In this document: in pieces, positions 25,149 through 37,068 of the stretch
Layout: each line of letters begins with the position of its first letter
Position numbering within the stretch: position 1 is the first letter of the stretch
Source: Syntrophobacterales bacterium Delta_02
GTDB lineage: Bacteria; Desulfobacterota; Syntrophorhabdia; Syntrophorhabdales; Syntrophorhabdaceae
Assembly: GCA_001603955.1 (NCBI GenBank)
Contig: LVAA01000021.1
Location: forward strand, 62,001-126,000
Length of the DNA: 64,000 bases
Direction: 5' to 3'
Notes under the pieces: model-generated
What the model was told of the DNA's origin: nothing
The model's database searches: none
The model's input: the letters and a program-made list of their open reading frames with translations, nothing else
Position numbers and translations under genes: made by a program

Positions 25149-26402
25149 TCAGACGGCTCTCACTCTTCGCCGGGCTATCTCGGCGAAGAGACCGTGAAGC
25201 ATGGGTGTTTTCTCGAAGTCTTCCGTGGAGATCCGGCGAACGGCGATGTCCGTCATGGCGACGACCGTCGCGCTTCGCCTGCGAGCGTCCGTGAAATAGG
25301 CCATCTCACCGAAGATGTCACCTTCAGACAACTGGGCGATGGTTCCCCCCCCGGCGTCCTGAACGCGCACGTTTCCCCGGGCGAGATAGTAGATGCCGTT
25401 CGGTTCATCACCTACCCTCATGATGACATCGCCCTTCTTGAACCACTGTATCCTGAACAGGTTCTCCCAGTCCGTGTTCTCGATCAGGGCGTAATAGAAT
25501 TCCTGATCGAAGGCCTTGATAAGCTGCTGCGAGAGAAGAAGAAGCCTGATCCCGATGGAGTGCCCCTGCTTCTCATCTATCGTCATGCCCTGCAGCTCAA
25601 AGGTATCGATGGGATAGGGATTCTCGTGGATGTACTGCGATATGCGCAGCGTTGCCACATCAAGCTGCCCCGTGCTCTGCCTGAATGCCATTTCCGCTTC
25701 ACGCAGTTTTTGTTCCGCGATCTGGAAATTGGGGGTTATTTCCTTCTGCGCGTTTCCGATGAAGTGCTCGATCGCCTCGTTCTTCAATGTGATGAAGGAC
25801 TGAAGGTCGCTCTCGTCAATGTCCGCCGGACACTTGTGTATTCCCGGTTTGTAGATGGAATAGACGTGAATGGGGTGTTCGAAACTCTTTGGGGTTACCT
25901 TGCCTATGGCTACGATGAATCTCGCCAGATCTTTCTGGGCAAGTGCTACCTCGCGGTCCATGAGGATGGTTGTCCCGAAGTAGGCACAGAGTTCCTCGAG
26001 CCTGTTGGCGGCCGCGAAGCAGTTGCCGAACCTGAGAGTGAGCGCGCCGAACGGAGCCTCTATGATATCGCCGACGTAGATGCCGATCCGGGTGAAGGGG
26101 ATTTCTCCTGCTTCGATGGCCTCGGTGATGGTAAGGGCTACTTTCAGCGCCCGCCTGCATTTTTCTTCCCTGCCTTCGCCTGCCTTCTGCTTGAAGATCG
26201 CTACTGAAGCGTCCCCGGCACAAGGTTCGAACTCGTCGGCCCTCCCCTTGCCGTCCATCACCATCGTCTGCAGATGCCCGTGATAACCGATCATGTAATC
26301 CCGGATACCCTCGGCGCTCATATTCGATGTAAGTCTTGAATATTGATGGATATCCGTTATGAGGACAGCGACTTCGTTTTCGGGACCGTTCGTTTCTCTC
26401 AT
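25149..26402 (-). CDS. Class III nucleotidyl cyclase-like protein with C-terminal cNMP-binding domain
   Basis: A 417-residue soluble protein. The N-terminal half is a class III adenylate/guanylate cyclase fold: VLITDIHQYSRL holds the first metal Asp, EPCAGDASVAIF the second, and GIYVGDIIEAPFGALTLRFGNCFAAANRLEEL the conserved core. A helical linker (about 210-295) leads to a cyclic-nucleotide-binding domain (about 300-400) with FKKGDVIMRVGDEPNGIYYLARG and EGDIFGEMAYFTDARRRSATVVA; the GEMA and RSA residues bind cNMP phosphate in active family members. The fusion suggests product feedback. A strong promoter leaves only about eight bases of leader, without a Shine-Dalgarno. Confidence 0.85.
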   Translation of the reverse strand: MRETNGPENEVAVLITDIHQYSRLTSNMSAEGIRDYMIGYHGHLQTMVMDGKGRADEFEPCAGDASVAIFKQKAGEGREEKCRRALKVALTITEAIEAGEIPFTRIGIYVGDIIEAPFGALTLRFGNCFAAANRLEELCAYFGTTILMDREVALAQKDLARFIVAIGKVTPKSFEHPIHVYSIYKPGIHKCPADIDESDLQSFITLKNEAIEHFIGNAQKEITPNFQIAEQKLREAEMAFRQSTGQLDVATLRISQYIHENPYPIDTFELQGMTIDEKQGHSIGIRLLLLSQQLIKAFDQEFYYALIENTDWENLFRIQWFKKGDVIMRVGDEPNGIYYLARGNVRVQDAGGGTIAQLSEGDIFGEMAYFTDARRRSATVVAMTDIAVRRISTEDFEKTPMLHGLFAEIARRRVRAV

Positions 26403-26614: not shown

Positions 26615-27265
26615 TTACTTCGTTATAAAGACCTTGTGTTTCTCCAGTATCTTCTGGAACTCCTTGCTTTTCCTTAGGTTGTTGATGTCGGGGTCCTTCC
26701 TCAGACTGTCGTAGTCGTTGAAACCCTTGTCGAGGGCGGCGTCGAGTTCATCCAGGCCGTAGTCGGTATTCCCCATGAGGGAATGGACGGATGCGAGATT
26801 GTAACGGATCGTCGCGTTGTCCGGCTTGAGCTCCTTGGCCTTCTTGAGATCGTCGAGGGCCTTGTTGTTCTTCTTCTGAAGCATGTAGGCCACGGCCCTG
26901 TTCGAATAGGCTTCGGCATAGTTGGGGTCCTTGTTTATGGAATTCGAGAACTCGGCGATCGCGTTCTGCAGATTCTCGTTGTAGACGCTCTTGGACGTGG
27001 CATTCTTCGCGATGCTCACGTAGCTCATGCCCTGTTTCAGGTGTGCCTTCACCTCCTGGCTCGGCTCTCCCGAGGCAGGTTTTGCGGCTTCGGCGGCAGG
27101 TTTTGCGGCTTCGGCGGGATCGGCCGGTTTTTCCTGGGCCGGCGCCGGCTGCTGCGGTTCGGCCTTCGGCTCCGACTTTGACCAGGGCATCTTGTCACAT
27201 CCCATTCCCATGAGCCCCACAGAAACCAGAATAGCTATGGTGGCGACTGCGATCCAATTCCTCAT
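26615..27265 (-). CDS. TPR-repeat lipoprotein
   Basis: A 216-residue lipoprotein: lipobox LMGMGC with C23, a low-complexity Pro/Ala/Glu/Lys linker (about 30-70), then two or three tetratricopeptide repeats (for example NYAEAYSNRAVAYMLQKKNNKALDDLKKA, shortened here as residues about 120-150) and a C-terminal helix. Likely tethered to a membrane and used for protein binding. AGGAGGAGG ribosome site; starts 26 bases after the caspase-like gene, so it is the last gene of the four-gene operon. Confidence 0.8.
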   Translation of the reverse strand: MRNWIAVATIAILVSVGLMGMGCDKMPWSKSEPKAEPQQPAPAQEKPADPAEAAKPAAEAAKPASGEPSQEVKAHLKQGMSYVSIAKNATSKSVYNENLQNAIAEFSNSINKDPNYAEAYSNRAVAYMLQKKNNKALDDLKKAKELKPDNATIRYNLASVHSLMGNTDYGLDELDAALDKGFNDYDSLRKDPDINNLRKSKEFQKILEKHKVFITK

Positions 27266-27291
27266 CTATCTATCCTCCTCCTTATTTGATA

Positions 27292-28542
27292 TCAGGGCGT
27301 TTTCTTGATGCACATGTTCCAGTTACTGTTCGTGGCCATGGCTTGAGGCGTCTGGCTGATGTCCGCCCCTTTTTCCTGCTTTACCCTCTGGGAAACGAGA
27401 GGCTTTGAGTAGGTGAAGGCGTCCTTCACGGAGCCGTTGTACCTCTTCAGCCCGTCGACAAAGTAATAGGTGAAAACGCTGTTCTTGAGACTGTCCGATT
27501 CCCAGGATTTCTCACCCGCGCTGCTCGCCGACAGGAGCACCTTGCCATAACCGTTCTGGTTGTCGACGTCCTTGGCCGCTCCCGAGGCCTTCCTGGGATC
27601 CTCGTCGAGCACTATGTCCTTGGAGCCGAGAAGTCTTTTCCCGTAGTCCTTCGATATCCCGTAGCCTTCGTCGTCATCCGCCCCGAGGGACTTGCCGCCG
27701 GGGGGCAGAAAGCCCGGTATGGACCGGTAGGCGCCGTTGCTGTAGCAGGTGTCGAGGATCATTACCAGCCTTTTGGCCCTTAAGCCCTCGACGAAGTCCT
27801 TGAGCATGTTCTCCGTCACCGCCGTGTGCCACACGCGCTCGCGGGGCTTGACCTCGGTGTCGTACGTGACGATATGGACACCTCCGAACTTGTCGGGAGG
27901 GGTGCCATGACTGCTCATGTAGACGACCACAAGGTCGTCGGGACCGGCGGCGTTCTTTATCGTGTTAAGGTACTTCATGATGTTGTCCCGTGTCGCTGTC
28001 TGGTCCGTGAGATAGTAGACGTTGCTCCGCGGGAATGCCGCCCCCCGGGGATTGACGAGGAAGCTGTAAAAGCTCGACGCGTCCCTCACCGTGTATTGCA
28101 GGGTCTGGATGCCGTACTTGAAGTGTCCCACGCCGACAACGAGGGCGTAGCGGTTCCGCACGGCCCCCGGGGCCCCCTCTGACCCTGTTTCCTTGAGGAC
28201 CCGGGCGCGGCTGAAGAGGCTCCCGATCCTCTTTTCCCATTCCTTTACCTTTATGTTGTCCGGTGTCACCGGCGAGACCCACTTGACACCGACGACGGTC
28301 TGGGCGAGGGAGAAGGCGAGATCGACCTGCTTGTCGTCCTCGTAGCCTCCCTTGAGCTGAACCCGCCCGTAGGTATCGAGTTCGGCATACCCGTTGGTTA
28401 TCCCGTTCTGTTTGAAACCGTTGTTGATGCTGGTGAGGTGCGCGTCAGTGACCGGCGTGGTGTTGGCAAGGACGACGCAGCTTCCCCCCAGGAGAAAAAG
28501 GAGGGTGAAGGCGGTCAATATGAGTGAATTGCGCCGTCTCAT
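27292..28542 (-). CDS. Secreted caspase-like (C14) protease with N-terminal BON-like domain
   Basis: A 416-residue exported protein. Signal peptide (LILTAFTLLFLLGGSCVVLA), then a BON-like domain (about 33-92, ELDTYGRVQLKGGYEDDKQV) that usually binds membranes or phospholipid, then a caspase/metacaspase domain: ALVVGVGHFKYG, catalytic H212 in MSSHGT and catalytic C266 in LDTCYSNG. Both catalytic residues are present, so it should be active, cleaving after an unknown residue. The linker 283-315 contains several Asp-rich stretches that might be a self-cleavage site. Third gene of the operon; TAGGA ribosome site eight bases after the previous gene. Confidence 0.85.
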   Translation of the reverse strand: MRRRNSLILTAFTLLFLLGGSCVVLANTTPVTDAHLTSINNGFKQNGITNGYAELDTYGRVQLKGGYEDDKQVDLAFSLAQTVVGVKWVSPVTPDNIKVKEWEKRIGSLFSRARVLKETGSEGAPGAVRNRYALVVGVGHFKYGIQTLQYTVRDASSFYSFLVNPRGAAFPRSNVYYLTDQTATRDNIMKYLNTIKNAAGPDDLVVVYMSSHGTPPDKFGGVHIVTYDTEVKPRERVWHTAVTENMLKDFVEGLRAKRLVMILDTCYSNGAYRSIPGFLPPGGKSLGADDDEGYGISKDYGKRLLGSKDIVLDEDPRKASGAAKDVDNQNGYGKVLLSASSAGEKSWESDSLKNSVFTYYFVDGLKRYNGSVKDAFTYSKPLVSQRVKQEKGADISQTPQAMATNSNWNMCIKKTP

Positions 28543-28550
28543 GATATTTC

Positions 28551-29363
28551 CTACCTCACGACGGACCTGTCCGCCGTTCTCTGAAGCATCGAGACCTCTT
28601 CGACGACGAGCACGGTCTCGGTGCGGTATCCGTAGATGCTGTTGATATCGGGAACGAATGCGGTCGCCTTCCGGACGGTGAGCTCGCGTTCCATCATATC
28701 GGATTTGCCTTCGGCGTTGACGACGAAAGCGATCTTGTACCGGCCTTCAGGCACGTCCTTGGGGATATCGAAGCTGCCATCCGCGGTCCGTGTTCCCGGG
28801 GCTGCCGTGACCTCCTGGTCCACCTGGCCCAGGTCCACGAACTCGTTCTTCGACGGGTCGAAGTACTTGACGATCCGTGTCTCCGTGACCTTTATCTCCT
28901 TGCGGTCCGGGGGTGCCATGACATAGTAGGAACCATTAAGCTTGACGGCCTGGCCCTGAGTGACGGACGCGGGGCTCGCGTTGAAGCTCTGGATCTTGAC
29001 GAGGTCTCCCTGGGACTGGTTGTAGCCGATCTTCTGCGCCGTTTCCTGGTAGCCCGCGGCGGGCTGGCTTTTCAACGTGGAGTACAGGGAAAGGCACTTG
29101 CCCCAGGCATAGGCGAAACCGATGCCGCCGCCGATGGCGCCGCCGATGGCGGCCCCCTTCCAGTCGCCGCCGATAAGCCCGCCGATAAGGGCACCACCGA
29201 GGGCCCCTCCGACGGTGTGAAGGGCGATACACTGATTTCTGGCCCTGATACGGTCTTCTTCGGTTTTTATCTCATCGGGATTGGGCAGCATGGATGCGCA
29301 GGAATAGAGGAAAAACACCCCGATGAGCATGATGGCGAACAGTCTGACGCGTTCCTTCTTCAT
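28551..29363 (-). CDS. Glycine-zipper lipoprotein
   Basis: A 270-residue lipoprotein: lipobox LYSC with C22, then a glycine-zipper segment (about 51-88, GGALGGALIGGLIGGDWKG and GGAIGGGIGF) that can insert into or oligomerise at a membrane, then a soluble part of beta-sandwich type (about 115-230, VKLNGSYYVMAPPDRKEIKVTE). Ends with a region rich in Val, Arg and Ser. Second gene of the operon, with AAGGAG upstream. No named function recognised; the beta part may be an adhesion or scaffold domain. Confidence 0.75.
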   Translation of the reverse strand: MKKERVRLFAIMLIGVFFLYSCASMLPNPDEIKTEEDRIRARNQCIALHTVGGALGGALIGGLIGGDWKGAAIGGAIGGGIGFAYAWGKCLSLYSTLKSQPAAGYQETAQKIGYNQSQGDLVKIQSFNASPASVTQGQAVKLNGSYYVMAPPDRKEIKVTETRIVKYFDPSKNEFVDLGQVDQEVTAAPGTRTADGSFDIPKDVPEGRYKIAFVVNAEGKSDMMERELTVRKATAFVPDINSIYGYRTETVLVVEEVSMLQRTADRSVVR

Positions 29364-29377
29364 ATATCAGGTTCTCC

Positions 29378-30244
29378 TTATCGGTGATTGAGTTTGATCT
29401 CGAGGGTGAGGATCTTGCCGTCCTCTATGTAGGACGCGGGTACGACCCCGTAGTTCTCGCCGCCGCGGGATTCGAGGACGATGTCCTTCCTGCCCTTCGG
29501 CTCGGGTTTCCAGCCGTTCTTCGGCGAGATAACGGCATAGCTTGTCTTGTTCCCGTCTTCCAGGGTAATGTCCTTGCCGCCCGCGAGGGAAGCCGTCATG
29601 ACACCCGGCGGAGGCGGCGGGGGAAGGTTCGCGACGTCAGCCTGTCCCGGCGGAGGCGGGGGAGGGAGGGCTGCATCGGTGCTGCCCGGAGGAGGGGGAG
29701 CTGCCGGCGCCTGTGCCACTGTCTGTCCCTGTGAGGGCATGCCCATGGGGTTCGGCTGGCCGGAGAGCATGACGAGGAGCTTCTCGGTGCCCGGCGGCCC
29801 GGAGAACCTGAAATTGCCAGCCCTGGGTATCTCCATCATCGTGCCGGCCTCCACCTGCTCGCTGCACAGGACCGTCGTGTTCCCCGAGGTCCCTATGTTC
29901 ATGATCGTGAGATAGCCGGGTTTGTTGGTCCTGACGAGAAGTTTCAGCCGTTCGCCGGAGCGGAATGTCCTGGAACGGGGAACGATGTCGAACCTGCCGT
30001 CATCACGAAGAAGGACGAGCTTGTAGGAGATTCCCACGTATTTCTCTCTGGCAGGTGCCGCCGCTGTCTGGGTGGAGGTTTTCACCGCCGGTCCCGAGGA
30101 CATCCTGACCGCCGGTCCCTCGCCGCTGTCAAAGATGGCCTTTGCCCCGGCCGGCTGTTTCTTCTGCGCGAAGGTATCGCCGCTGGAACACACGATGGCA
30201 ATGGCGGCGAGAAGAACGACAAAAATTGAAGGCAATGCTTTCAT
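29378..30244 (-). CDS. Secreted DUF4384-like protein with proline-rich hinge
   Basis: A 288-residue exported protein. Signal peptide (IFVVLLAAIAIVCSSGDTFA), then a domain with RSGERLKLLVRTNKPGYLTIMNIG and TTVLCSEQVEAG, which I recognise as DUF4384-like; this domain is often found beside or fused to caspase-like proteases. Residues about 180-215 hold three PPPPPPG runs, a flexible hinge. A C-terminal beta segment (GRKDIVLESRGGENYGVV) follows, repeating the earlier DITLEDG pattern. First gene of the operon, with a strong promoter and AGGGAGG ribosome site. Confidence 0.75.
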   Translation of the reverse strand: MKALPSIFVVLLAAIAIVCSSGDTFAQKKQPAGAKAIFDSGEGPAVRMSSGPAVKTSTQTAAAPAREKYVGISYKLVLLRDDGRFDIVPRSRTFRSGERLKLLVRTNKPGYLTIMNIGTSGNTTVLCSEQVEAGTMMEIPRAGNFRFSGPPGTEKLLVMLSGQPNPMGMPSQGQTVAQAPAAPPPPGSTDAALPPPPPPGQADVANLPPPPPPGVMTASLAGGKDITLEDGNKTSYAVISPKNGWKPEPKGRKDIVLESRGGENYGVVPASYIEDGKILTLEIKLNHR

Positions 30245-30376
30245 GAGAACCTCCCTACTGTTAAGAAATGTTGATTTTCCCTTGCTGAACGATCATTCAC
30301 TATGCAGTTGTCCCGGATCGATGGTACCTGGTGTGCAGACGGAATATTGCTGTGCTGTACCCATGGTGTAGCACGT

Positions 30377-30406
30377 AGTATAACTGGAACGCGGAAATTT
30401 TGTCAA
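30377..30406 (-). promoter_or_regulatory. Consensus promoter of the caspase-like operon
   Basis: On the minus strand TTGACA (30406-30401), 18-base spacer, TATACT (30382-30377). A perfect -35 box. Confidence 0.75.
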
Positions 30407-30531
30407 CGGAAGACCTCGAGGCCCGGGAGCCACCTCTTGCCTGTTCGGGGTCACCACGGTGTCATGATCTTGACAGTCGAGGTCAGGCCTCCCTTTGCGG
30501 ACGGGTGGTGTAATACGACCTCATATTAATG

Positions 30532-30561
30532 TTGACAATCCGGGTACGTCGCCGATATATT
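30532..30561 (+). promoter_or_regulatory. Consensus promoter of the giant secreted protein gene
   Basis: TTGACA (30532-30537), 18-base spacer, TATATT (30556-30561). The leader to the ATG at 30680 is about 110 bases long and ends with GGGGGA as ribosome site. Confidence 0.75.
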
Positions 30562-30679
30562 GCGTCAAAAGGCAAAGGGTATCCTCACGGGGTATCCGTC
30601 GCTTTGCCTTTAGGCCAGGTAAACCTGCCGCGGATTCACCGGGCAGTCTACATTCCAGAAAGTCCCGAAGGGGGATCAC

Positions 30680-33600
30680 ATGCGCATTCCGAAATCTCTC
30701 AAGGTCAATCTCCTTATCTGTCTGATCCTTCTCGTGCCGACGCTTCTCCCTGCTGTCACGATGCCTCCCTCCCAGCTTGTGAGCGAGGCCATGGACGGTG
30801 TGCTTGTCGACATGGGCAATCCCTTTCTCAAGGTCATCAAGCAGGGGTCGTGGATATCGGGAGATAACTACCGGAATCCTCTCACCAACCTCCTCGATCC
30901 CTCCGACCACGACGCCAGGCTTTTCATCTCCCTTGATGACGTGGGGCCCGAGCGGGCGCGGGAGGTCTGGAAGGCCTACCAGGGGCGCCTGAGAAAGAAG
31001 ATATTCGCCATGGCGAAGAGCGCGGGATACAGCACCGACGAGATACAGCTCCTCCTCAAGTCCGTGAACTTCTACCCTCCCGCTCAGCTTCTGAAAGGCA
31101 TAGAACAGAACGAAGAGGCCATTGCCAGATTCCTCAAGATGGGCAACTACCCCAATCTCCTGGAGGTCGGCGAAGAGGCGGCCGAGGGACTCTACACGAC
31201 ACCCACCAAGTTCATCCGCCAGGGGTACGAGACGGGAAAAAGGGTCCAGGTGGCGGAACTTGTCGCCGAGGAAGGCTCTGACTCATATCGCCTGGTCCAC
31301 AAGGCGACCGCAGAGGCGGAGCACGTCGCCGAGACGGTCGGCGAGGCCAACCTCAAGGGATACGTGCAGTCGGCGGAGTACAGCCTGAACGAGGCGCAGA
31401 AGGCCCTGAAGGAGGGCAAGCTCGACACGGCGAAGAAGAACCTTACCCGCGCGAAGGACCGCCTCAAGAGCGCCAGGAAACTGGGCGGCGTGAGCGCCGA
31501 AGGCGCGGCGGTCAAGGAACTGGACGCCCTGGAAGGCCAGATTGACGATGCGATAAAACTTGCCTTCGAATCGGCCGACGACGCGAAGGCGATGCTTGCG
31601 AAGACGAAGCAGTTTGCGAACAAACTCGGCGGTGAGGTCATGAAGAAGACCACCGTCGACCTCGCTGCCCTGGAGTCGATGGCATTGAAGAACTCGGTGA
31701 AACAGCGGGCGTTCCTGAAAGGCGTCCTGGAGGGCGAAGGCAAATGGGCCACCCTGAGGGTCAACCTGGAGGAGGCCTCGGGCAGCGCTCTGTCAACCCT
31801 GAAAAGCGGGGCCCGGCTCGCCTACAGGAACTGGTTCATCTCCCTCATGGCCCTGTGGGAGCTCAAGGAGTTCCCGGCGGCCATCGAAAGGGAAGGGGCA
31901 GCGAAGGCGAGCGCCCGGTTGGCGGCAACGATCGCGGGCCTCGCGAACCCCACCTTTGGTTACGCGCAACTCTTCAGCGTGATATTCGTGACGACGGGAG
32001 AGCTCCTCGTTGACTGGGTCAGCTCCTATGGATATGGTGCCGTGGTGGGCAGGCAGGACTGCATGGACCTGATCGCCGGCCTGTACACGGTTCCCGGCAG
32101 GGAGCAGAACATCGAGGAGAGAGGGTGCGAGCAAATAGGGGACGACAGACACCTCGCCTGCAGGATATACGATTCGAAAGGGCTCAGAAGCAGCCTCGCG
32201 ATGGGGCACAGGTTCAACCAGGATTTGATACCTCCCTTCATGATCCAACTCCTCAACTGCCACGCGAAGGCCGCATCGAAACACTATGACGACTATGAAT
32301 CGAAGCACGACGAAGGGGTTCAGCAGGCCCTCGTCAACAAGTGTCTCCAGCCGGTCCTGAAGACCTGGCTCGACAGCCGCCAGCTTATCGTGAACGAAGC
32401 GGATGCCCTGCGGCAGGCCCTGGAGGAGCAGCCCGTCAGGGTCGCGGCGAACCCCTCCCGGCTTAAGGAGAAAGGGACGGTACGGTTGTCCGTTGAGGAT
32501 ACAACTGGTGTCTCCGGGGCCCAGAGGGACATCGAGGAGAGAGCGAAGTGCCTCGGTGGCATCCACGCACAGCCGAAGTCGGGCAGCGACTATATCTGGA
32601 CCGTGAACGGCAAGACCTTCGCGAAGAACTACAACCGGGGCACGGCGGAGCTTTCCCTCGATGCTCCTGGCACATACGAGGTGTGTGTCTCGGTCGAGTA
32701 CGCCTGGCGCGTGGCTGGCCTTCCTGTCGTGTCGACGGAGGATGGACTTTCCGGCAAGGCAACCAGGAGGGGCTGCGCCACGGTGGTGGTCGAACTGCCT
32801 CCCGAGGACAAGAAGCCCGGAGACACGAACGTGTCCGAAACCCCGCCGCCCTCCGACCCTACAGGGGGAGCGACGAAGGCGCCCCCGGCAGAGGTGAAGA
32901 AAACGCCACCCTCGTGTTCCTACGAGTATTCGGATTGGGGCGAATGCGACAGAACGACGAAGAAACAGAAGAGGACCGTGACGGGAAAGAGGCCCGAGGG
33001 CTGCGTGGAGACGCGCAAGCCCGCTCTCGAACAGGGCTGTACCCCTCCGCCGACCAAGGCGGAGCTGGACTCCAGGTATTACAACTGTCTCTGCCGCTGC
33101 TACAGCGGCTGGGCGGGGCATATCGGCGTGTGGTGGGACCCCGCGGGCAAGTCGGTGCCGGAGTGCAAGAGCAGCGGTCCCTGTTTCGGCGGGGCCGGGG
33201 CATGGGGCTGCACCAGGAGGCACAGCTTCGGCGCCCCCAACGACTGCGCGAAGGGCTGCTGGGAAGGTGCCTACGGCAAGGGGACGTGGGACTCGAAGAA
33301 AGCCGATCAGATGAGAAGGGATGAGAACAAGAAACACGTGAAACCCCTCACCGTGAAGCTCAAAGCGTCCAAGAACCCCGCCGATTTTGGCGACATCGTG
33401 ACGCTCACCGCCGAGGCGGCCGAGGGAACGGGTGGCTACAAGTACTCCTGGGGCGGCTGTGCTGAGGACGCGAAGGACGCCCGGGCAAAGGTCATGAACA
33501 GCAGGGAATGTAAGCCCTGCACGGCGACCGTCACCGTAACGGACCAGGACGACGGTAGTGCCTCGGACTCCGTCACGATCAAGTGCACGGCCCTCAAGGT

Positions 33601-36262
33601 GAAGCTCACGAAGGAAAGTCCGAAGGAGAACAGCATCCCCGTGGGGGGCAAGGCCACGTTCCTCGCGCAGGTCTTCTCCGGCGGCAAGCTGGCCTCCGGG
33701 TCCTTTACCTACACCTGGGAGCGAAATCCCGACGCGCTCTTCGGTGACGCGAAGAACCCGAGGTACGAGACCACCGGCGGTTCCCGGTCGCGCAATTCCG
33801 CGTCCTTCGGGAAGCCGGGGACAACGCCGGTGTGGGTGGTGGTGCAGCGCCAGGTTGACGGCCGCAAGATGACCGTCGGCGAGTCGGAGCAGATCATGAT
33901 CCAGGTGGTGAAGCCGAAGATCACCCTCAAGGCCGCGCCGCAGGACCCGTTGGTCGGCCAGGAGGTGAAGATCACCCTCACCGAGGAACCGAAACTCGAC
34001 GCCCAGACGGTGTCCTACTGGTGGGAGATAGCGGGCAGCGCGCAGAACGCCGGTCCTGCAACCTCGGACCAGAAGACCTACACGTACAAACCGAAGGACG
34101 ACAAGCCGGTGACGGTTACCGTCCACGCCAAGGCGAAGGACGGCGGCGAGGAGATCGGCCTCGAGAAGATCACCGTGACGGCGAAGAAACCGACCGTTAC
34201 CGTGACGGGCCCGAAGATAGCGGGGCCGCCGCCCATGATCTGGAAAGAGGGTGTGGGACTCGTTCCGGCGGGCCGCCAGATAGCCGAACACCAACGTGTG
34301 GAGTTCTCCGTCGCGGTGACCCCGGCAACCGCCCAGCAGCTGCGCTACCACTGGAAGGTCTCCCCGGAGGGATGCACCGTCTCAGCGCCTTCTTCAAAGG
34401 ATACGGGCGTGACCTGCGGGAAGACGGGCTCCTATACCGTGACCTGCGCGGTGAAGAGCGCCGACGGAGCCGACCTGGGAAGCGGGACGGGGTCGCTCGG
34501 TGTGACCATATCCCAGTCGGACATATCCACGGGCAAGAAGAAGGATGAGGCAAAGAAGAAGCTCGACAACGCCAGACAGCTGTGGTCGCAGAAGAAGTAC
34601 GACGGGGCCATAGCGGCGGCCGAGGCCGCGGCACAGGTGGACGGGAAGCTTGCGCAGCCCGTCCTTTCCCAGTTCTCACAGGAACTCAAGAAGATGGGAC
34701 GGGACGCCGTCAACAAGGCGGATCTCACGGAGGCGGTGAAGCGCCTGGAACAGGCGGTGAAGCTCAATCCCAACGATGCCGAGGCGAAGAAGAAGCTGGA
34801 GGAGGCAAAGAAATACGCCTCCGCATGGCCGCGCGTCGAGGCGAAGGCGAAGGAGTTCGACGCCTTCATCGCGCAGAATAAGGTGTGGTCGGCGCAGAAG
34901 GCCATGCTCGAGATGCAGGACATCCTGCGCGGCCAGTTGGGTGGCCAGTCTTCGTCGAACCCCCTGTGGGCGCGGGTGACGGCGGATTTCAACAAGGGCG
35001 TTGCCTGGTACAACGATTTTTCCCGGAAGAGCAACGGCGAGTGGACGAGGCTCTTCAAGGCCGAGGACTGGGAGAAGGCGGAGGTCCACTTAAAGCAGGT
35101 CCTGACCCAGGAATTAACTCCCGCGGATAAGAAACACTACGAAGCGGCCCTGCAGACGACGAACTCCATGCTCGCGAAGAAGAAGGAGGACCAGCGAAGG
35201 TGCGAGGCGAAATGGACCGAGGGCCAGGCGCTGTACAACGCGGGGAAACACGCCGAGGCTCTGGCGAAGTTCAAGGAGAACGTTGCCTGCGCACCCGGGA
35301 ACAGCCAGCGCGAGGCCTATATCCGTCAGCTCGAGGAGTCGCTCAAGAAGCAGGCGGCGGCGAAACAGGCCTGCCTTGCCGTGAGACAGCAGGGGGACGT
35401 ACTCGTGCAGCAGAAGAGGTATCCCGACGCGATAACGAAATACCGGGAGAGCTTGAGCTGCAATCCCGACGCCAAGCTTGAGGCCTATATCCGTCAGCTC
35501 GAGGGGGAAGTGAAGAAGCAGGCCAATGCCCGGGCGACCGCCACCCTGGCGAACCAGCTCCGTGCTGAGGGAGCGCGGCTCCAGAACCAGAAACGCTACT
35601 CCGAGGCCATCGCGAAATACCGGGAGAGCCTGCGCTATCTGCCCGACAAGGCCCTGGAGCAACATGTTGCCCAGATGGAGACACTACTCAAGAAGCAGAA
35701 CGACCAGCAGGTCCTTCAGGCCCGCGCCAAAACACTGCGCGACGAGGGTGCCACGCTCCAGGGGCATAACAGGATACGTGAGGCCATCGCGAAATACCGC
35801 GAAAGCCTGAGATACGTCCCTGACCCGCAGCTCGAGGCCCATATCCGCAAGCTCGAGGCAAGCCTTGCCGCGAAGCCGACGACGCCCACGCCGCCGACGG
35901 CGACAAGCGCCAGCCCGGCAGTAGGCTCCTGGACGGGTGTCTGGAAGAGCAGCGCCGGACCGGAAGGCGAGGTGGTCAGCTTCAGCCTCACGGCGAGCGG
36001 CAGCCGCGTCACCGGCACCTTTTCCGTCGCGGTCCCGTATACGGCGTCTTCCGGGGCGCGCAAGACGGAGACGCTGGGCGGTCCACTGGAAGGTACGATC
36101 ACGGGCAACAGGGCAAAGGGGACATTCCGCGAGAAGAGCGACGCAAAGCACACGGGCACCTTCGATGCCGTCATGGCAGCGAACGGTACCCAGTTCAGCT
36201 GCACCGTGCGCGCGACCGACGGCGGCGAAAGCAGGACCTACACGGTGAGACGGGTGCGGTGA
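30680..36262 (+). CDS. Giant secreted multidomain protein (TSP1-like, PKD-like, TPR)
   Basis: An 1860-residue exported protein of unknown function. In order: signal peptide 1-26; a helical and coiled-coil region about 60-400; a hydrophobic stretch near 410-465 that may be membrane-associated; an Ig/PKD-like domain near 590-715; a short Pro/Thr linker; a thrombospondin type 1-like module at about 744-787 (YSDWGECDRTTKKQKR, several Cys); a Cys-rich domain 795-870; three or four PKD/Ig-like beta domains about 887-1277; a helical TPR-like region from 1290, with four near-identical 55-60-residue TPR-type repeats at about 1508-1730 (each containing A(I/L)xKYRESL or equivalent); and a C-terminal beta domain 1748-1860. 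TSP1-like modules are uncommon in bacteria. It is divergent from, and likely functions with, the caspase-like operon. Confidence 0.85.
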   Translation: MRIPKSLKVNLLICLILLVPTLLPAVTMPPSQLVSEAMDGVLVDMGNPFLKVIKQGSWISGDNYRNPLTNLLDPSDHDARLFISLDDVGPERAREVWKAYQGRLRKKIFAMAKSAGYSTDEIQLLLKSVNFYPPAQLLKGIEQNEEAIARFLKMGNYPNLLEVGEEAAEGLYTTPTKFIRQGYETGKRVQVAELVAEEGSDSYRLVHKATAEAEHVAETVGEANLKGYVQSAEYSLNEAQKALKEGKLDTAKKNLTRAKDRLKSARKLGGVSAEGAAVKELDALEGQIDDAIKLAFESADDAKAMLAKTKQFANKLGGEVMKKTTVDLAALESMALKNSVKQRAFLKGVLEGEGKWATLRVNLEEASGSALSTLKSGARLAYRNWFISLMALWELKEFPAAIEREGAAKASARLAATIAGLANPTFGYAQLFSVIFVTTGELLVDWVSSYGYGAVVGRQDCMDLIAGLYTVPGREQNIEERGCEQIGDDRHLACRIYDSKGLRSSLAMGHRFNQDLIPPFMIQLLNCHAKAASKHYDDYESKHDEGVQQALVNKCLQPVLKTWLDSRQLIVNEADALRQALEEQPVRVAANPSRLKEKGTVRLSVEDTTGVSGAQRDIEERAKCLGGIHAQPKSGSDYIWTVNGKTFAKNYNRGTAELSLDAPGTYEVCVSVEYAWRVAGLPVVSTEDGLSGKATRRGCATVVVELPPEDKKPGDTNVSETPPPSDPTGGATKAPPAEVKKTPPSCSYEYSDWGECDRTTKKQKRTVTGKRPEGCVETRKPALEQGCTPPPTKAELDSRYYNCLCRCYSGWAGHIGVWWDPAGKSVPECKSSGPCFGGAGAWGCTRRHSFGAPNDCAKGCWEGAYGKGTWDSKKADQMRRDENKKHVKPLTVKLKASKNPADFGDIVTLTAEAAEGTGGYKYSWGGCAEDAKDARAKVMNSRECKPCTATVTVTDQDDGSASDSVTIKCTALKVKLTKESPKENSIPVGGKATFLAQVFSGGKLASGSFTYTWERNPDALFGDAKNPRYETTGGSRSRNSASFGKPGTTPVWVVVQRQVDGRKMTVGESEQIMIQVVKPKITLKAAPQDPLVGQEVKITLTEEPKLDAQTVSYWWEIAGSAQNAGPATSDQKTYTYKPKDDKPVTVTVHAKAKDGGEEIGLEKITVTAKKPTVTVTGPKIAGPPPMIWKEGVGLVPAGRQIAEHQRVEFSVAVTPATAQQLRYHWKVSPEGCTVSAPSSKDTGVTCGKTGSYTVTCAVKSADGADLGSGTGSLGVTISQSDISTGKKKDEAKKKLDNARQLWSQKKYDGAIAAAEAAAQVDGKLAQPVLSQFSQELKKMGRDAVNKADLTEAVKRLEQAVKLNPNDAEAKKKLEEAKKYASAWPRVEAKAKEFDAFIAQNKVWSAQKAMLEMQDILRGQLGGQSSSNPLWARVTADFNKGVAWYNDFSRKSNGEWTRLFKAEDWEKAEVHLKQVLTQELTPADKKHYEAALQTTNSMLAKKKEDQRRCEAKWTEGQALYNAGKHAEALAKFKENVACAPGNSQREAYIRQLEESLKKQAAAKQACLAVRQQGDVLVQQKRYPDAITKYRESLSCNPDAKLEAYIRQLEGEVKKQANARATATLANQLRAEGARLQNQKRYSEAIAKYRESLRYLPDKALEQHVAQMETLLKKQNDQQVLQARAKTLRDEGATLQGHNRIREAIAKYRESLRYVPDPQLEAHIRKLEASLAAKPTTPTPPTATSASPAVGSWTGVWKSSAGPEGEVVSFSLTASGSRVTGTFSVAVPYTASSGARKTETLGGPLEGTITGNRAKGTFREKSDAKHTGTFDAVMAANGTQFSCTVRATDGGESRTYTVRRVR
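35206..35870 (+). repeat. Four in-frame TPR-coding repeats
   Basis: Four tandem units of about 55-60 codons inside the giant protein gene. The DNA is also similar between units, for example GCGAAATACCGGGAGAGC near 35609 and its near copies at 35439 and 35788, which points to recent duplication. Confidence 0.75.
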
Positions 36263-36408
36263 TGGGATCGGACCGCGCGGGGAGCTCTCGCGGCCCTTCT
36301 TCCCGGGCTTGAGCTGCGGCCTTCCGCAGGTTCACGGTCCACCGCCTGGGAGGGAGACTTATCTGCACGAACAGGCCACGGGAGGTTTTGCTGGACTCGA
36401 GGGCCTCA

Positions 36409-37068
36409 TCATCTCTCCCCGTAGCGGGTGAGTTGTTCCGGGGTTAGCACGGCCGCGATGCGGTTTAGCGCGGTCTTCCGGACTTCCGCCAGTTCCGCGC
36501 TCACAGCGGTGAGGTCCGGTTGGTCTGCCTTCTCGTACCTCTCGATGATGGTTGCCTGCCCTGCTCTCTGATCATTCAGGATGGCGGCGATCTGCGACTC
36601 CTGCGCGGCGTCGAGGCCAAGCCGGACTTTCAGTTCGGCCGCATCGGGAATCGCCTTCTGGGCCATGCGCAGGGAGCGGAAATAGTACGCATTGTATCGC
36701 TGCGAGAATTTCTCCTGCCTTGCCCGCAATCTCTTCTTCTGTTCGTCGGTGAGCTTTTCGTTTATACGCTGAAAGCTTTCCTCGTATATCCTCCTGAGCT
36801 CCGGCTCGTAAGATACCCTGAAAGCCGTCGCACGTGCCTCCATCTCCGTGACCACCTTCTTCACCTCGACCGTCTGCGCGGCGTCCAACCGGAGGTCATC
36901 GACGAGTTTCTTCACGATCTTCCTCACCCTCTCTTCGGGGGTCCGAGATCGTGTCGGGTGAGATCCTTCCATCTGATACCCGAGGTATATCCTGGTTCCC
37001 AGCGCGCCGGCAAAGATCCCCACCAGGAGGACCAGGACCAGGGTGATGATGATCTTTATCTTGTTCAT
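36409..37068 (-). CDS. Periplasmic Spy/CnrX-like metal or stress sensor
   Basis: A 219-residue protein with an N-terminal membrane anchor (IIITLVLVLLVGIFAGALG) and a helical periplasmic domain. Two LTxxQ-like motifs (LTDEQKKRL and LTPEQLTRY) and the Arg/Glu-rich helices place it with the Spy/CpxP/CnrX/ZraP heavy-metal sensor group. In CnrX the domain binds metal and holds the anti-sigma factor; no obvious His-rich metal site is seen here. The start at 37068 has a GGGAG site 13 bases after the anti-sigma gene. Last of a three-gene operon. Confidence 0.78.
   Translation of the reverse strand: MNKIKIIITLVLVLLVGIFAGALGTRIYLGYQMEGSHPTRSRTPEERVRKIVKKLVDDLRLDAAQTVEVKKVVTEMEARATAFRVSYEPELRRIYEESFQRINEKLTDEQKKRLRARQEKFSQRYNAYYFRSLRMAQKAIPDAAELKVRLGLDAAQESQIAAILNDQRAGQATIIERYEKADQPDLTAVSAELAEVRKTALNRIAAVLTPEQLTRYGER

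Follow-up and report, generated by a model that had tools for sequence, protein, structure and literature searches.

What might four exported proteins, one of them caspase-like, do together outside the cytoplasm of a bacterium? The question is raised by a locus in a stretch of 64,000 nucleotides of contig LVAA01000021.1 from Syntrophobacterales bacterium Delta_02 (hereafter the window), part of a 4.0-Mb genome in 285 contigs whose nearest relatives are Syntrophorhabdus and deltaproteobacterial metagenome-assembled genomes. An earlier note had described four co-directional minus-strand genes, P4-P3-P2-P1, divergent from a plus-strand gene for an 1860-residue exported protein, P5; the five open reading frames (ORFs), their order and their coordinates were confirmed in the window sequence, with gaps of 26, 8 and 14 bp between the P1–P4 genes and plausible ribosome sites. 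The reading that we favour, at a probability of roughly one half, is that P2, an exported orthocaspase, cuts itself and, at a site common to both proteins, either cleaves P4 or is held by it.

Fold and predicted specificity of P2

The identification of P2 as a caspase-like protease with an intact His/Cys dyad was borne out by its match to Pfam Peptidase_C14 (Table 1) and by alignment with 16 relatives, 50–95% identical across the phyla carrying the operon, in which H212 and C266 are invariant (16/16), as are the two acidic residues D154 and D264. An AlphaFold2 (AF2) model built from 16 sequences had a predicted local distance difference test (pLDDT) score of 72, with a confident caspase domain and a linker (residues 273–327) that was predicted to be disordered (pLDDT <50). 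The best structural match of the model was plant metacaspase-4 (6w8r; Z 21.9, 2.3 Å over 212 residues), followed by MALT1, which cleaves after basic residues, and the Geobacter protein GSU0716 (Z 21.5 to both 3uo8 and 3bij). The modelled protein has a metacaspase/paracaspase fold and, by this fold, its dyad and an acidic S1 pocket, P2 is shown by computation to be an exported, intact enzyme of the orthocaspase type. Alignment with metacaspases equated D154 and D264 with Asp95 and Asp211 of TbMC2; according to PMC6426788, these aspartates and their orthocaspase equivalents hold basic residues at the substrate P1 position (not to be confused with protein P1), and metacaspases cleave after basic residues. 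Because of this correspondence, P2 most likely cuts after Lys or Arg.

The BON-like label previously given to P2 corresponded to a pattern and to predicted secondary structure in its N-terminal part (residues 33–100 form helix-strand-strand-helix-strand in the AF2 model); Pfam BON did not match P2 even at E 1. Against the NCBIfam model for EACC1-associated caspases (NF047832), P2 scored 74.5 bits, below the curated cut-off of 140.

Lysine sites in the P2 linker and in P4

Within the otherwise variable P2 linker lies the sequence G-S-K308-D-I-V-L-D, in which G306 and K308 are invariant (16/16) and D309 is kept in 15/16. P4 bears the same motif twice, around K224 and K253, at a constant distance from its C-terminus and each time opening a repeated unit (KDIxLED...YAVISP and KDIVLES...YGVVPAS). 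A related GAKAIFD lies near the mature start of P4, where G33, A34 and K35 are invariant in 17 relatives. Among the ORFs of the window (19.9 thousand amino acids) the motif occurred only in P2 (once) and P4 (twice), and a motif search did not find it in P1, P3 or P5. In 299 thousand amino acids of ORFs from the collected loci nearly all matches belonged to P2 or P4, the exceptions being a tubulin segment and a spurious antisense ORF. A loose DNA pattern matched the organism's own genome six times, three of them in the operon; the closest other match was a cytoplasmic CODH/ACS-like protein, and the other genus-wide matches that were fetched were apparently cytoplasmic or spurious. The WD40-caspases encoded near giant proteins in relatives were considered as the partner and rejected; they are without the pattern and absent from this locus.

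The basic residue of the site is kept across phyla, with a change from Lys to Arg in Magnetobacterium P4. The residue following K-D (Ile or Leu) is the same in P2 and at least one P4 site in 26/26 operons, and in an Acidobacteria outgroup the Asp is lost at both sites (GQKSLVLE and GSKTLLVE). In Paraburkholderia the site has changed in both P2 (YTSKGIRFSDD) and P4 (YAAKGIAFSDD), giving the common form Y-x-x-K-G-I-x-F-S-D; the linker peptide YTSKGIRFSD scored 38 against its own P4, which 0/1000 shuffles reached, and 20–29 against other P4s. The case for the putative shared site rests on conservation, that is, on this recurrence and the Paraburkholderia co-change.

Several points weigh against this interpretation. 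Within the window alone the match between linker and P4 was not significant (55/1000 shuffles), the pattern was spotted first and tested afterwards, and the Ile/Leu agreement rests on few changes, one on strongly supported branches and up to four. The assignment of D154 and D264 to the TbMC2 residues comes from alignment, not from a bound structure. Caspases and type II metacaspases typically cut themselves between p20 and p10, which type I metacaspases typically do not (PMC5756287). Cleavage at the K-sites is a prediction, and the peptide that P2 and P4 have in common might serve for docking rather than as a cleavage site.

Table 1. Features of the locus, with positions in the window
Feature	Position	Strand	Evidence
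P1: lipoprotein, TPRs and TPR_END domain	26615..27265	-	Pfam TPR_11 1.4e-14; NCBIfam TPR_END_plus 1.2e-20
P2: exported BON-like and caspase-type (C14) peptidase	27292..28542	-	Pfam Peptidase_C14 E 1.8e-18
P2 K-site GSKDIVLDE, aa 306-314, p20-p10 linker	27601..27627 (K308 codon 27619-27621)	-	Alignment of 16
P3: glycine-zipper lipoprotein	28551..29363	-	Pfam Gly-zipper 3e-4; alignment of 15
P4: exported DUF4384 protein, Pro-rich hinge, C-terminal KDIxLE repeats	29378..30244	-	Pfam DUF4384 E 2.5e-12; alignment of 17
P4 K-site 2 GRKDIVLES, aa 251-259 (K253)	29468..29494	-	Alignment, pattern search
P4 K-site 1 GGKDITLED, aa 222-230 (K224)	29555..29581	-	Alignment, pattern search
P4 related N-terminal K-site GAKAIFDS, aa 33-40 (K35)	30125..30148	-	Alignment of 17
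Operon P4-P3-P2-P1 promoter TTGACA-N18-TATACT	30377..30406	-	Pattern and conservation in 7 genus members
P5 promoter TTGACA-N18-TATATT	30532..30561	+	Pattern and conservation in 7 genus members
P5: giant exported protein	30680..36262	+	Pfam TPR_2 2.1e-13, PKD 6.7e-5; orthologues in 7 genus members
P5 G-S-W...S-D-H-D motif, aa 56-80	30845..30919	+	Common to several giant sub-families

Proposed mechanism and alternatives

In the mechanism that we propose, P4-P3-P2-P1 would encode an exported, membrane-associated proteolytic switch. P2 would process itself after K308, within G-x-K308-D-[IL]-V-x-[ED] of the disordered p20-p10 linker, and the earlier idea that the protease acts on itself gains a concrete candidate site in this lysine. 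Because P4 carries the linker site twice, together with the related N-terminal site, it may be a dedicated substrate of P2 or a substrate-like inhibitor. As lipoproteins, P1 and P3 would likely tether the complex to the membrane, a signal may be sensed or bound through the BON-like and TPR parts, and P5 would be an often co-encoded partner, perhaps a scaffold, sensor or effector, and not an obvious substrate. The lipoprotein signals noted previously held up in relatives, the P1 lipobox cysteine C23 being invariant in 17 and S21-C22 of the P3 lipobox in 15. In P3 a glycine-zipper hairpin is conserved, with an invariant cysteine on either side, C45 and C90 (alignment of 15); Pfam Gly-zipper models do match P3, as the earlier label implied, but with E values of 3e-4 to 4e-3 they fall short of their cut-offs. 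The C-terminal part of P3 appears to be Ig-like. More broadly, and tentatively, the operon may represent a so far undescribed, widely scattered form of extracytoplasmic caspase signalling in which the activation-loop sequence of the zymogen is copied in a dedicated partner, lipoproteins serve as anchors and the large partners, P5-type giants or the tubulin-like protein of Magnetobacteriaceae and Paraburkholderia, are interchangeable.

The main rival to a cleavage site takes K-D-I-V-x-E as a docking or strand-exchange element, so that the P2 linker and the P4 repeats would compete for one surface, such as the P1 TPRs or a P3 groove, keeping the zymogen silent. That the motif opens each repeated unit of P4 agrees with docking, as do a hydrophobic-acid tail after the Lys that is conserved beyond the need of P1 specificity and a TPR lipoprotein that is nearly always encoded with the operon. 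However, the most constant position is basic (Lys, in one case Arg), which is what basic P1 specificity predicts, and the linker is the place where caspase-type zymogens are cut; we regard docking as a serious but unlikely alternative. That P2 instead cleaves the giant P5 and releases part of it, as the earlier note had suggested, is improbable: the shared site was not found in P5 and is concentrated in P4, for which that note had proposed no such role, and giants are missing from several operon-bearing genomes and present without the operon in others. The two are nevertheless associated. Orthologues of P5 occur in 7/7 other genus members with the operon and 0/4 without it (Fisher p 0.003), the divergent promoter region is conserved in the genus, and P5-type giants adjoin the operon in at least four lineages in differing arrangements, directly after P1 in two Burkholderiaceae and in Nitrospirota G544, and upstream on the same strand in G041. 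In each of the two phylum samples, giant and operon shared genomes more often than chance predicts (p 8e-4 and 1e-4). Relatedness of the genomes inflates these p values. The linkage of giant and operon is genuine but looser than that within the operon, and optional, many operon genomes having no detectable giant and some giants occurring alone.

P3 adjoins P2 in nearly every case, and the conserved hairpin of P3 with its flanking cysteines is in keeping with a gasdermin-like death or lysis device, in which a cut by P2 would free P3 for pore formation. Such a device is quite improbable, however, as P3 looks like an ordinary lipoprotein with distant relatives outside the operon, carries no site resembling the linker, and no gasdermin model was found among the Pfam matches of the five proteins, remote homology being possible. 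We consider an anti-phage or conflict system akin to other caspase-associated defence modules to be very improbable. Its sporadic distribution (4/395 Desulfobacterota, 8/295 Nitrospirota and 1/300 Burkholderiaceae genomes), the match to the PADLOC 'caspase' profile (E 4.8e-13) and the Tubulin_2 neighbour in some genomes would fit defence, but all components are exported, the window neighbours of the locus (lytic transglycosylase, formyltransferase, sigma factor and HlyD-type gene) are not defence genes, the other PADLOC models were silent and 50,697 phage records contained no relative. Among the defence and secretion systems tested none matched, in agreement with the earlier note, the observation of which was confirmed and its interpretation partly supported.

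Autoprocessing coupled to P4, the reading preferred here, can be set beside several known systems. P2 is like orthocaspases, or prokaryotic metacaspases (MEROPS C14B), in its p20 fold, His/Cys dyad and two acidic S1-pocket residues, and unlike them in its putative N-terminal BON-like domain, export signal, conserved four-gene operon and partner-shared linker site. MALT1 and plant type II metacaspases provide the closest solved folds (Z 20–22) and also have a linker before the p10-like part, whereas P2 is 14–21% identical to them, is bacterial and extracytoplasmic, and lacks both a death domain and an Ig partner. DUF4384 is reported at the C-terminus of trypsin-domain pseudo-orthocaspases (PMC6426788); in the operon, by contrast, P4 is an exported protein of its own, and the linker of the protease carries copies of its K-sites. 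If the proposal holds, the operon resembles Craspase TPR-CHAT and caspase-gasdermin pairs in having a caspase-like protease with a dedicated co-encoded substrate, but there is no CHAT match, no CRISPR neighbour and no gasdermin, and all components are exported. A previous survey that listed metacaspase operons assigned no function to 70 of 217 (PMC3501461). Our literature search found no description of this operon, and none of the papers mentioning DUF4384 appeared to treat a comparable one. Orthocaspases are a familiar class of enzyme; the system and its shared self/partner site are not described in the literature searched. For most bacterial caspase homologues the natural substrates are not known. 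Here sequence alone would name both the partner and the exact lysines. If true, this would be an extracytoplasmic caspase pathway of simple logic, the self-site being the substrate site, and the record of a Paraburkholderia strain offers a possible route to genetics.

Distribution, promoters and giant proteins

Among 60 relatives examined, orthologues of P2, P3 and P4 co-occurred in the same 11 genomes, as they do in the window, and the order P4-P3-P2-P1 was kept wherever the contig allowed. A scan beyond these relatives found the same order in Syntrophaceae, Nitrospirota, Thermodesulfovibrionales and Burkholderiaceae. Desulfobacterota, Nitrospirota and Burkholderiaceae thus share the arrangement, and in other groups the genes occur rearranged. 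For the four-gene operon the refuting condition set in the earlier note (genes not adjacent in relatives, no co-occurrence) did not hold, and the genes form a conserved unit outside the cytoplasm. In Methylomirabilis the order is kept with an extra overlapping ORF before P1, in Rokubacteria the parts are rearranged on a cut contig, and in Candidatus Magnetobacterium casense and G668 a 110-residue membrane protein and an 1100-residue Tubulin_2 protein are encoded between P2 and P1. On plasmids there was one distant full set, from Paraburkholderia, arranged P3, P2, P4, Tubulin_2, P1, with a caspase 27% identical. Because the operon is rare despite its broad range of phyla, its distribution suggests horizontal transfer or repeated loss. 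Insertion of Tubulin_2 in Magnetobacteriaceae-type genomes and Paraburkholderia sp. PREW-6R (L114:5118-8754, L167:3641-7289 and L224:10238-13255) puts a cytoskeleton-like protein beside an exported caspase. A WD40-Big_7-caspase paralogue is encoded elsewhere in the organism's own genome (C209, L094:4426-7455).

The two back-to-back promoters proposed for the locus were upheld: both have the form TTGACA-N18-TATAxT with 11/12 consensus matches, in a region with 4 promoter-like sites against 1.7 expected. Because both hexamer pairs are almost fully kept in seven genus members while the rest of the intergenic region has diverged, the operon is probably expressed in parallel with P5. The terminator described 3' of P1 is weak, being one of several such stems near chance level.

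P5 consists of an N-terminal GSW...SDHD domain, a Cys-rich region, PKD-like domains, TPRs and a C-terminal beta domain; its Pfam match to TPR was clear and that to PKD just below the cut-off. Giants whose N-terminal sequences are unrelated have in common G[SGTK]W-x(3-25)-[DE]xD (7/11 against 0.1 expected), a motif reminiscent of nucleotidyltransferases (P5 30845-30919; loci L092, L095 and L143-L149). No credible profile match to a nucleotidyltransferase fold was obtained for the giant N-termini in PDB or Pfam, hhalign between them was not significant (the motif was superposed in 2/3 comparisons), and an AF2 model of P5 residues 22–600 reached a pLDDT of 44 from an input of four near-identical sequences. 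In Rokubacteria an 1812-residue exported protein without BLAST similarity to P5 adjoins the operon and carries a nucleotidyltransferase-like motif (NGT...SDLDFTIV; L113:3600-9035). Giants of about 3000 residues in Syntrophaceae (L143:5880-19555, L144 and L145) are clustered with a transglutaminase-like lipoprotein, a PD40 propeller protein and a conserved MELWRR protein, and MELWRR and PD40 propeller proteins also follow the caspase operon in Thermodesulfovibrionales (L107:3986-7646). In genus relatives the giant is trailed by varying sets of four genes, encoding a WD40-caspase, a 323-residue unknown protein, a TMTC-like membrane-TPR protein and a SulP-STAS transporter with a cyclic nucleotide monophosphate (cNMP) domain, all of which are missing from the window (36262-36409). 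A cNMP-binding domain is also present in the degenerate nucleotide-cyclase-like protein encoded directly 3' of the operon (25149-26402), which is kept in G003 and G011.

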